Assembly: GCF_000504205.1 (NCBI RefSeq)
Contig: NZ_AZAJ01000001.1
Span: 2,888,879 to 2,952,878, forward strand
Direction of reading: 5' to 3'
Source: Methanolobus tindarius DSM 2278
GTDB taxonomy: Archaea; Halobacteriota; Methanosarcinia; Methanosarcinales; Methanosarcinaceae
DNA length: 64,000 nt
Shown here: positions 28,996-31,822 of the stretch, piece after piece
How positions within the stretch are numbered: the first letter of the stretch is position 1
Layout: every line of letters begins with the position of its first letter
Position numbers and translations under genes: made by a program
The notes under the pieces: model-generated
Database searches by the model: none
Seen by the model: the letters and a program-made list of their open reading frames with translations, nothing else
Told to the model about the DNA's origin: nothing

Positions 28996-29412
28996 CTATT
29001 TTTCAGGAATCTGAAGTTTATTCTTCTTCCTGTACGTCATCCCATTGAATATCGCAACGGTATCTCCCTGGTCATCTGTAATGTTTACAACGTAGGTTGA
29101 TATTTTCGGGTTGATGGATGTTTCCTTTGCTTCTGCATAAAGAGTGCCTTCTACTGCGGCTTTGACAAAGGATATGTCGGCATTGATAGCAACAGCAACA
29201 GTCCCATAGGAATTTGAAGCAGCAGCAAATGCCATATCTGCAAGTGTAAATATTGCTCCGCCGTGCACAGTGCCCAGGATATTGTGATGTCTTTTTTCTA
29301 TCCTCATTTCGGCTTTAGCATAGCCTTCTGAGACTTCAGTTATTTTCATGCCGGAATTTGATGCGAAACATTCCTGAGAAAAATATCTTTGGATATCATT
29401 CATGTTTTCCAT
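28996..29412 (-). CDS. PaaI-like hot-dog fold acyl-CoA thioesterase
   Basis: 138 residues from ATG 29412, preferred over an upstream GTG at 29439 because GAGGG lies about 6 bases before it. The hot-dog helix reads HGGAIFTLADMAFAAASNS, with the catalytic-type Asp in LADMAF, and the preceding strand contains NILGTVHGG, both typical of PaaI-type thioesterases that hydrolyse aryl or medium-chain acyl-CoA. Its position beside a phenylacetate-CoA-ligase-like gene suggests CoA recycling or removal of misloaded CoA esters (inference). Confidence 0.88.
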   Translation of the reverse strand: MENMNDIQRYFSQECFASNSGMKITEVSEGYAKAEMRIEKRHHNILGTVHGGAIFTLADMAFAAASNSYGTVAVAINADISFVKAAVEGTLYAEAKETSINPKISTYVVNITDDQGDTVAIFNGMTYRKKNKLQIPEK

Positions 29413-29536
29413 AAAAACCCTCATTGAGTGATGTCCCACTCAGTTTGTTTTCTTCATACTTATATTAGTTGTTAATTGGTCGGTTAATTGTTTGCAGATA
29501 ATATCTGAGATGATTAATCATGATAAATAAGGGTTA

Positions 29537-29547
29537 GCTATATATAC
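29537..29547 (+). promoter_or_regulatory. TATA box of the micro-protein gene
   Basis: GCTATATATAC lies about 30-40 bases before the ATG at 29577, so transcription should begin within about 10 bases of the start codon, giving a leaderless or nearly leaderless mRNA. Confidence 0.55.
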
Positions 29548-29576
29548 AAATAAGATATAGTCTATCATGATAAAAC

Positions 29577-29690
29577 ATGACAGAATATTACGTTAATCAC
29601 AGCCCATACAGTTTTGGAACATTCTTCCTTTCACTGATGATCGCTCTCATAACCTATTACTCATTCCTCAGCTACCACGGTGTAGTTTGA
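29577..29690 (+). CDS. 37-residue membrane micro-protein, unrecognised
   Basis: A complete short frame from ATG 29577 to TGA 29690. The product starts MTEYYVNHSPYSFGTFF and continues with a single hydrophobic helix (residues about 15-31) ending in SYHGVV. It has a well placed TATA box, and a large hairpin and a T7 run follow it, so it looks like a compact independent transcript of about 250 bases. Codon choice resembles that of neighbours. I do not recognise a family. It could be a small subunit or regulator of a membrane complex, or the frame could be incidental to a non-coding RNA. Confidence 0.5.
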   Translation: MTEYYVNHSPYSFGTFFLSLMIALITYYSFLSYHGVV

Positions 29691-30169
29691 TTTGTACCAC
29701 AAAGAAGGATTGGGTCTATTTGGGGACTAGTGTAGAAAAGAGCATAAATGGATGATACGATCCATTTGCTCTTTTCCCTTCATATGTCATCAATCTACAA
29801 CAACATTTGTTAGTTGTTTTTTTATTGTGCCTGGTTCTTGTTTCTATCATTTTCATCATTTTCTTATGTCTTTCCTTTATTCAAAGTTCAGAATACATAG
29901 TTATATTTAAGTTTTAACAAACATTTAGCATTTAATTAATATATATCTTCAATTTCTTAGTATGTGGCGTTTTAATATGGATATATATTTTTGACAATAT
30001 AAAACACTGCTAATTTTTGGGCTGTTTTGCAAAATATTTATATTGCACTGAGTAATTGCTTTACTTTACAGGACAAAAAAATTGCTACTTACGGACCGGT
30101 TAAAAGGCAGACAATTTATTTGTTTACCATGGGCTGTTTGAAGTGACAATTAGAGTAGGGGTAATAGGT
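29691..30169. other. Intergenic region with strong hairpin and leader of the next kinase
   Basis: Apart from the hairpin at 29735-29776 and a T7 run at 29817-29823, this 480-base stretch is AT-rich. A TATA-like AAATATTTATATTG at about 30032-30045 probably drives the kinase at 30170. I see no other gene. Confidence 0.45.
29735..29776 (+). ncRNA. Long stem-loop downstream of the micro-protein
   Basis: The arm GAAAAGAGCA-T-AAATGGAT (29735-29753) pairs with ATCCATTTGCTCTTTTC (29760-29776) over 17 pairs with one bulged T and a six-base loop. With the T7 run at 29817 this may be the 3' structure of a small mRNA or a stable small RNA. Confidence 0.5.
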
Positions 30170-31822
30170 GTGTTAGGTAATGATAAAGTAGATGATATTG
30201 CTGATTTGGACTCAATGGATATACCCGACTCGGTAAAACGGGAATTATTTCAAAAAACAGCTCTTCTTTCAGGATTGCTTCGTTCCGTTCCTGATCTTGT
30301 TTTTTTTAAGGATACAGATGGTATTTTTCTTTCATGCAATGAAATGTTTTCCAGATATGTAGGTAAACCTGCAAGCGAGATTATAGGAAAGACGAGCCAT
30401 GATATTTTTGACAGAAGCAGAGCTGACTTTTTCCGCTCTAACGATAAACGAGTGCTTGAATCCGGCCATTCTTATAAAAGTGTGGAATGGATAGACCGTG
30501 CCGATGGAAAAAGAATTCTTCTTGAAACGTTTAAAACCCCACTTTTTACTGAGGAACATGAACTCATAGGTGTTGTTGGTGTCGGTCGTGATATAACTGA
30601 GCGTAAGCGTGCCGAGATTGAGTTAAAAGACAAGAAGAATGAACTGTTCCAGATAGTAAATGGAAGTCCTATTCCGGCATTTGTGATTAACAAAGATCAT
30701 GATATTATATACTGGAACAAAGCCTGTGAGAATACAACAGGCATAAAATCCAAAGACATAATTGGAACCAGAAATTCCTGGATGCCTTTCTATGATAGTA
30801 AAAGACCGGTACTTGCAGATCTTATTGTTGATAATTGTCTTAATGACATAGAAAAGGTATATGGTGATAAAAAGCTGCAACCTTCTTTTGTTGAAGGTGG
30901 TTACCAGGCAGAAGATTATTTTGACGTAATTGGCAGATGGATTCTTTTTACTGCTGCTCCTATAAGGGATCATAACAATGAGATCATAGGAGCAATCGAA
31001 ACACTTCAGGATATCAGTTTGTCCAAACAGGCTGAACAGGCAATGCTGGAAGCTAAAATGCTGGCGGAGAATACTTCACGCACAAAGAGCGAGTTTCTCT
31101 GCAATATGAATCATGAACTTAGAACTCCCTTAAACCTTATTCTGGGGTATGCAGATCTTCTTCTGGCAGAAGAAACCGGAACTCTGAATGAAGAACAGAG
31201 ACATTTCTCTGAGATTATCAAATTCGCAGGGTCCAGATTCCTGGACCTGGTTGATTCTTTGATATACATTGCTGAGATAGAAGAAGGAAAAATGGAACTT
31301 GATGTTGATTTATTTTCAGTCCCAAATCTTATGTCTGATGTAAAGAGGATGCTAAGTTCTCAAGCACTCAAAAAAGGTGTAAGTCTGGAGTTTGATATTC
31401 ATCCTTCTGTAACAGTTGTATATGCTGATAAGTCCAAGATAAAAACAATTTTGCACCATCTGATCAGTAATGGGATAAAATTCACACCATCCGGTGGAAC
31501 TGTTCTTGTAATTATCAGACAGAACCAGAATAATGAACTTAAGCTGATTGTAAAAGATGATGGAATAGGTATATCAGAAGAAGATCAGAAGAGACTGTAC
31601 AATGCTTTCGTTCAGCTTGACTGGTCGCTTAACCGTAAATTTGAGGGTTCCGGGCTTGGTCTGAGTATTGTCAAGAAATTTGTGGAAGCACAGGGAGGCA
31701 CAATCAGTCTTAAAAGCAAACCCGGTGAAGGAAGCACATTTGAAGTACTCTTGCCACTGTCTTCCTCAGAAAACTCCGGTGTACTTGGAGACATGTGCAA
31801 TAGTACGGAATATCTTGAATAG
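30170..31822 (+). CDS. Soluble two-PAS sensor histidine kinase
   Basis: About 550 residues. PAS1 (about 35-150) carries VPDLVFFKDTDGIFLSCN, the same module seen in three other kinases here. PAS2 (about 165-290) has FVINKDHDIIYWNKACE and a long insert containing SWMPFYDSKRPVLADLIVDN, a subtype I associate with multi-PAS archaeal and delta-proteobacterial sensors. HisKA reads [11 protein letters not shown] (His315), with Asn in place of the usual Ser; ATPase motifs NGIKFTP, DDGIGIS and GSGLGLSI are intact. I chose GTG 30170 because AGGGGT lies about 10 bases upstream; GTG 30143 is in frame but lacks a ribosome site. Confidence 0.9.
   Translation: MLGNDKVDDIADLDSMDIPDSVKRELFQKTALLSGLLRSVPDLVFFKDTDGIFLSCNEMFSRYVGKPASEIIGKTSHDIFDRSRADFFRSNDKRVLESGHSYKSVEWIDRADGKRILLETFKTPLFTEEHELIGVVGVGRDITERKRAEIELKDKKNELFQIVNGSPIPAFVINKDHDIIYWNKACENTTGIKSKDIIGTRNSWMPFYDSKRPVLADLIVDNCLNDIEKVYGDKKLQPSFVEGGYQAEDYFDVIGRWILFTAAPIRDHNNEIIGAIETLQDISLSKQAEQAMLEAKMLAENTSRTKSEFLCNMNHELRTPLNLILGYADLLLAEETGTLNEEQRHFSEIIKFAGSRFLDLVDSLIYIAEIEEGKMELDVDLFSVPNLMSDVKRMLSSQALKKGVSLEFDIHPSVTVVYADKSKIKTILHHLISNGIKFTPSGGTVLVIIRQNQNNELKLIVKDDGIGISEEDQKRLYNAFVQLDWSLNRKFEGSGLGLSIVKKFVEAQGGTISLKSKPGEGSTFEVLLPLSSSENSGVLGDMCNSTEYLE

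Follow-up and report, generated by a model that had tools for sequence, protein, structure and literature searches.

Organization of the locus

We analysed a stretch of 64,000 nucleotides (the window) from a genome that is a single contig of 3.15 Mb. The small unit reported here sits between a divergently oriented gene of the thioesterase family (4HBT; 28996-29439) and its downstream neighbour, a PAS/histidine kinase gene (30143-31822). An initial annotation had proposed a self-contained unit at 29537-29823, and we confirm that this small unit is real. Its TATA box (CTATATATA) is present on the plus strand at 29538-29546, and the proposed start codon is an ATG at 29577 with a predicted leader of about 8–12 nt. 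The 37-codon frame on the same strand (29577-29690, stop codon at 29688-29690) is complete. Directly after the stop codon lies the motif GUACCAC (29694-29700), followed by a putative short G-rich stem–loop (29712-29732; CUA...UAG, about three pairs) and a 17-bp hairpin with a 2-nt bulge (GAAAAGAGCAUAAAUGGAU/AUCCAUUUGCUCUUUUC; 29735-29776), all on the plus strand. The initial annotation had missed the GUACCAC motif, a pair of palindromes flanking the TATA box and a paralogue elsewhere in the genome, all of which are described below.

The expected transcript, deduced from where the TATA box lies and where conservation ends, is about 220 nt long and would extend from 29566 to 29786 on the plus strand. 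DNA similarity to the closest relatives stops no more than about 10 bases past the hairpin. This excludes the run of seven T residues from the conserved unit and gives an RNA of about 220 nt instead of the previously suggested length of about 255 bases; its 3′ end is probably near 29786, immediately past the hairpin. The T run itself exists, at 29817-29823, but it lies about 40 bases beyond the hairpin and past the similarity to relatives. It is not conserved, and we rejected it as the terminator. We also rejected the idea that the RNA is the leader of the next gene. That gene is a histidine kinase in the window, an opposite-strand gene in genome G022 and another gene in the frame-less clade described below, and the RNA is therefore not the leader of a fixed neighbour. 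In the published transcriptome of Methanolobus psychrophilus, leaders under 10 nt account for about 16% of transcripts, and 81.6% of primary transcripts have BRE/TATA elements predicted at about 19–22 nt from their start (PMC5378194).

A conserved one-helix membrane peptide

We searched 60 genomes, including that of the window, for the peptide. Matches (E = 1.1e-8 to 6e-20) occur in 18 genomes, all of them among the 27 Methanolobus genomes, and the frame, which we term type A, is intact and 37 residues long in all 18. Mismatch rates at codon positions 1, 2 and 3 are 0.22, 0.11 and 0.42; without the first six codons, which partly overlap the downstream palindrome, they are 0.24, 0.11 and 0.46. 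The median dN/dS is 0.14 for the 122 usable of 153 pairs, 31 having been dropped for lack of a usable dS. Across the type-A loci, the same-strand alternative frames contain 3–7 and 0–4 stops. The type-A frame is under purifying selection at the codon level, and both its occurrence in 18 of 27 genomes of the genus and its codon substitutions place the frame originally proposed beyond chance.

AlphaFold predicts one helix in the type-A peptide (residues 10–34, mean pLDDT 82), in agreement with the single membrane helix suggested before, and from the hydrophobicity of this helix we infer that the peptide is inserted into the membrane. The peptide combines a single predicted helix, a length below 50 residues and conservation. 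Met1, Glu3 and Tyr27 are invariant across 27 family members; Tyr28, Tyr33, His34 and Gly35 are additionally kept in 17 aligned type-A sequences, and lysine and arginine are nearly absent from the type-A peptides.

CydX, KdpF and AcrZ are small one-helix membrane proteins, and the Methanolobus peptide resembles them in size and in its single helix. Unlike them, the window peptide has no match in Pfam, NCBIfam or PHROGs, and the family profile has none among PDB sequences. A hit to Baculo_ODV-E27 (E = 0.036), obtained with only 1 of the 27 family members, and hits to three PHROGs families (E = 0.05–0.09, one member each) are taken as chance. The family is one of undescribed one-helix membrane peptides.

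Structure and conservation of the 3′ RNA

The motif following the stop codon reads TACCAC in 17 of the 18 type-A loci and TACCGC in the remaining one. In all 18, a hairpin core lies 41–53 nt after UACC(A/G)C, which itself is outside the stem. The long stem–loop noted initially proves to be far more stable than expected by chance: the window hairpin has a folding energy of −21.5 kcal/mol, with a z score of −6.8 relative to dinucleotide shuffles, none of which (0/200) is as good. Its type-A counterparts score z = −3.6 to −6.9 against mononucleotide shuffles (18/18 loci below the shuffles). The core, CAAAUGG/CCAUUUG, is nearly invariant, and the internal loop of the outer stem shifts sides between loci.

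A covariance model of motif and hairpin, run against 111 genomes of the family, recovers all 18 frame-bearing genomes and five genomes of the genus that have no frame (G021, G026, G016, G023 and G006; E = 3e-6 to 8e-4); a sixth, G011, is found at E = 0.10. Each genome has one such locus; the second matches listed represent this hairpin read from the opposite strand. Outside the genus, eight genomes give weak matches at E = 0.0135–0.42, which we take as background on inspection of one locus (L134).

In the alignment used for covariation (22 of 24 sequences; L131 and L127 (G006, below threshold) left out), 92.1% of cells are paired, compared with 24.8–49.2% when the structure is slid along the sequences. 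Two-sided changes occur in 7 of 12 pairs, and none of 500 shuffles reaches as high a value. Since the alignment was fitted to the model, this covariation leans in favour of the structure, and four of the nine main-stem pairs never vary and are therefore silent for or against it. The short G-rich stem–loop has two-sided changes at all three pairs in some sequences, with 81.5% of cells paired, and is assigned tentatively.

Rfam gives no match in the window at gathering scores; at E up to 1, a scan of three loci (L105, L124 and L043) returns only a weak sR17 match, elsewhere in L043. Two further pairings were considered by eye and discarded: a small UUUG-UACCA-CAAA hairpin, the outer pairs of which fail in several loci, and base pairing between GUACCAC and the G-rich loop, which proved inconsistent.

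Paralogues and the sister genus

A second place in the same genome (410946-411029) matches the promoter region upstream of the type-A gene, and the same promoter there precedes a paralogue of the peptide, type B (G000:C1:411015-411116; L043:4016-4120). In place of the GUACCAC element, this gene has an inverted repeat across its stop codon (CTCATGGCA...TGCCATGAG). In total, we found 29 paralogue copies at 19 loci, one to three per locus, with 33–39 residues in the complete ones; one locus belongs to G011 and the others to frame-bearing genomes, several of which have two or three copies close together. A DUF2119 gene lies about 2–5 kb from the paralogue locus in 17 of 18 frame-bearing genomes, judged by coordinates; in G007, the two are situated across two contig ends. 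The other flank is a thermosome gene, named by eye, in both loci listed. Among copies of length 34 (20 distinct sequences), the mismatch rates by codon position are 0.20/0.10/0.35, indicating that the paralogues are under codon-level constraint of their own. Two of the 29 copies were dropped, one cut by a contig end and one situated before a run of N.

A profile search of the 111 genomes places members at E ≤ 1e-8 also in six genomes of one other genus. In the five genomes fetched from this sister genus, the thioesterase and DUF2099 genes adjoin the peptide gene as they do in the window (5/5), which suggests that the position on the thioesterase side is probably ancestral. In Methanolobus, the thioesterase gene is no more than about 1 kb from the 37-codon gene in 17 of 18 frame-bearing genomes; in the 18th, G013, the two are on separate contigs. 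The GUACCAC element was not found in the sister-genus 3′ regions inspected. The sequence CCTCC, which resembles an anti-Shine–Dalgarno stretch, lies in the first 100 bases downstream of the stop codon in 17 of the 27 type-B copies, and it also occurs 3′ of several sister-genus copies.

The RNA persists without the frame

In the five frame-less genomes recovered by the covariance model, promoter, motif and hairpin are kept beside the thioesterase gene. The motif reads TACCAC in four of them and TACCAT in G006. G011 retains the same locus, the same kind of promoter and the hairpin; the frame is gone, and the GUACCAC element is absent from its usual place. A copy resembling the sister-genus peptide is found at another locus of G011 (L061:3939) behind the same kind of promoter, and is possibly a retained paralogue or a transfer. 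The family profile finds no member elsewhere in G006, G016, G021 or G023, and a match in G026 (E = 0.015), inside a 131-codon frame, is taken as chance. Neither frame nor RNA is present in 3 of the 27 genomes of the genus (G003, G012 and G020). Beside the thioesterase gene of G012 (L154), a long ATTT-type tandem repeat replaces the unit, and the next gene is histidine-kinase-like.

We compared the two subclades formed by the five frame-less genomes, leaving out G011. Mean identity between subclades is 0.92 for the RNA and 0.75 for the promoter, compared with 0.35 for the former frame, 0.60 for the 100 bases downstream and 0.49–0.54 for third codon positions of the thioesterase gene. The RNA could still be an mRNA in this clade, specifying a different, very short peptide. 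The frames left at the locus comprise 12 codons (MIEHRNDYRTHG) in G021 and G026, 5 in G016, 9 in G023 and 2 in G011; G006 has one of 36 codons that is unrelated in sequence. The presence of that frame in G006 and the identity of MIEHRNDYRTHG in G021 and G026, where the coding DNA differs by one synonymous base, speak for such a replacement. Nevertheless, we consider it highly unlikely, given frames that vary in length (12, 12, 5, 9 and 36 codons in G021, G026, G016, G023 and G006) and a stretch only 0.35 identical between the subclades.

The same comparison bears on another view of the locus, that of an ordinary small mRNA whose sole product is the peptide, with motif and hairpin serving as terminator or stabilizing 3′ end. 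The hairpin does close the conserved unit, and in several loci U-rich sequence comes after it. Also, judged by eye, the paralogues have a different terminal hairpin, one that includes the stop codon, and hairpins at the end are therefore common in the family. However, a plain mRNA accounts poorly for promoter, motif and hairpin persisting in five genomes without the frame, for an RNA identity of 0.92 where third codon positions of the neighbouring gene are at about 0.5, and for a UACC motif situated outside the stem, 41–53 nt before the core. We therefore regard this view as unlikely, if the most serious of the alternatives.

The comparisons instead point to an RNA function apart from coding, and the pattern indicates a second role for the 3′ RNA and its hairpin, one that outlasts the frame. 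If so, the hairpin and T run would be more than a terminator. The proposal of an independent membrane-peptide gene is well supported by comparison. A hairpin kept in relatives that lack the frame had been named as an outcome that would refute this proposal. This is what 5 of the 27 genomes of the genus show, yet it does not refute coding, since the frame evolves under codon-level selection in other genomes and has paralogues that lack this RNA. The opposite extreme, a noncoding small RNA in which the 37-codon frame arose by chance, would fit the one clade that conserves the RNA without the frame, but it is hard to reconcile with 18 intact frames of equal length, their third-position excess and a dN/dS of 0.14, or with paralogues and sister-genus copies that have the protein but not this RNA; we give it almost no weight.

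Evolutionary history of the unit

A FastTree phylogeny of 31 genomes was built from up to three proteins (DUF2099 is missing for 5 of the 31 genomes, and DUF2119 for G011 and four outgroup genomes). The five RNA-only genomes and G011 form one clade with support 1.0, and the group holding the frame-bearing genomes adjoins it with support 0.79; several nodes of the tree have support of 0.17–0.79. The outgroup genus carries the frame. Given this and the full support for the frame-less clade, the most parsimonious history is one in which the frame was lost and the RNA survived, and since the five RNA-only genomes share one ancestor, the loss was probably one event, not five. The frame is probably the older component, with the RNA element gained in Methanolobus and one clade then dropping the frame and keeping the RNA.

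A further alternative is a type I toxin–antitoxin-like arrangement, in which the hydrophobic peptide would be a toxin restrained by a structured or antisense RNA. A short hydrophobic peptide combined with a stable RNA hairpin resembles such a system, as do the two or three nearby paralogue copies of several genomes. Against it, 17 of 18 genomes have the gene in its usual position, no more than about 1 kb from the thioesterase gene, purifying selection acts on the protein, the type-A peptides have almost no lysine or arginine, and the RNA outlasts the peptide in one clade. We consider a toxin–antitoxin system very improbable.

A double palindrome at the promoter

The promoter of the unit is flanked by two palindromic sites. 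The upstream site, op1 (ATGATTAATCATGATAAAT; 29510-29528), is found at the window gene, the paralogues, the sister genus and the frame-less clade. The downstream site, op2 (TATCATG-N6-CATGACA; 29563-29582), identified by pattern matches and present in relatives and the sister genus, covers the expected transcription start and the start codon. The general design places ATGATTAATCATGAT or a near variant upstream of the TATA box; downstream of it lies TATCATG-N6-CATGA(C/T)A, again with near variants. A TATA-like element is at the same place in the other promoters inspected. The spacing between op1 and op2 is 55–57 bp in 43 of the 45 promoters that match both patterns (11 type A, 25 paralogues, 3 sister genus and 6 frame-less); 7 of the 18 type-A promoters and some others fall outside this count, as the strict pattern pair is unmatched there. 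The remaining two promoters scored 53 bp because the pattern matched four bases further in. The simplest inference is a repressor that would act from either side of the TATA box. The promoter is nearly palindromic and might be read either way. Of the 18 type-A loci, 15 have the sequence GTTCGTA, possibly a third regulatory site, at a distance of 13–17 bases (most often 14) ahead of op1; its counterpart in the window is GTTTGCA (29490-29496).

The exact op2 pattern occurs in this genome only at the type-A locus and the paralogue; twelve further places differ from it at one base. With one mismatch allowed, there are 12 forward and 8 reverse matches, compared with 3 and 1 for the reversed pattern, the sole control in these pattern-based regulon searches. 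In three genomes inspected, an op2-type palindrome directly follows a TATA-like element that precedes an acetyl-CoA synthetase gene (L104, a one-mismatch site at G000:C1:1365417-1365436; L207; L223). The gene was identified by a Pfam scan of the L207 protein and, at the other two loci, by its matching protein start; it is likely a further member of the regulon. In two genomes inspected, G005 and G006, the palindrome adjoins a gene for a regulator of the Lrp/AsnC family (L203:1501-1520 and L197:1501-1520), which is a candidate for the regulator of the unit. At L203, a DUF22 gene follows the Lrp/AsnC-family gene (Pfam scan of the L203 proteins only). A half operator (ATTATTAATC(A/G)TGATA(A/G)A) lies upstream of two genes named by eye, one for a winged-helix-like regulator (L099; G000:C1:3134741-3134758) and one for an HdrC-like iron–sulfur protein (L095; G000:C1:199940-199957).

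Discussion

The reading we favour, at a probability of about 0.68, is that of a regulated single-gene unit of Methanolobus that makes a dual-function RNA, encoding a membrane peptide and carrying a small RNA at its 3′ end. Comparison among genomes shows a selected frame, an RNA kept without the frame and a conserved double site; transcription, translation, repression, action in trans and a membrane partner are deduced. In the mechanism we propose, a DNA-binding protein recognizing TATCATG-N6-CATGATA would occupy both flanks of the TATA box as well as the start site and so repress the unit. This double palindrome would control the synthesis of an RNA of about 220 nt, the leader of which would be very short. 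Its 5′ part would be translated into the 37-residue one-helix membrane peptide, which probably serves a larger membrane protein as a small subunit or modulator. The 3′ part, comprising GUACCAC, the short G-rich stem–loop and the terminal hairpin, would be a small regulatory RNA that most likely works in trans by base pairing, either within the whole transcript or after release from its 3′ end. The folded hairpin is predicted to leave GUACCAC single-stranded, and this motif may pair with target RNAs.

A broader proposition, on which we are evenly divided, is that the loci represent an undescribed family of archaeal dual-function RNAs whose two functions have been split by evolution under a shared double-palindrome promoter: RNA only in one clade, RNA and peptide in the other, and peptide only in the paralogues and the sister genus.

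Among bacterial dual-function RNAs, SgrS/SgrT, Spot 42 and others combine a small protein and a base-pairing part on one transcript, and the frame of SgrS is absent in some species. In contrast to SgrS/SgrT and Spot 42, the Methanolobus unit has an archaeal TATA promoter, its frame is almost at the 5′ end and its RNA element is the 3′ end.

In the literature considered here, archaeal dual-function RNAs have been proposed on the basis of ribosome profiling of Methanosarcina mazei (PMC11456600). Judged by its description, the nearest published case is sRNA154 of that organism, which has a leaderless frame of 20 residues and is proposed to be dual-functional (PMC11456600); it acts on nitrogen-metabolism mRNAs (PMC5867862). 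As far as the portions of these reports used here describe it, sRNA154 is like the Methanolobus unit in being an archaeal intergenic small RNA from the same family of organisms, in having its start codon close to the 5′ end and, on the reading favoured here, in its regulatory part. The likeness is one of description only: the Methanolobus frame is longer, and those portions mention no membrane helix for sRNA154.

From the same genus, a report on M. psychrophilus R15, used here in part, describes cold-induced small RNAs with a "cold box", nine of them conserved, together with 195 intergenic start sites (PMC5378194). The units are alike in being small RNAs of one genus with a shared motif near their promoters, but unlike the nine conserved cold-box RNAs in the portion used, the 3′ element described here occupies one locus per genome. 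No description of our locus appears in the parts of the literature searched; the start-site list for M. psychrophilus (PMC5378194) may include the RNA-only form.

Natural RNA-only, peptide-only and combined variants coexist, and the two functions are therefore separable without first knowing either. The locus adds a membrane peptide family that is absent from the family libraries used, and its clear palindrome points to a small regulon. If the two functions have indeed been split as proposed, peptide and RNA would be two outputs of one regulon, answering to one signal.
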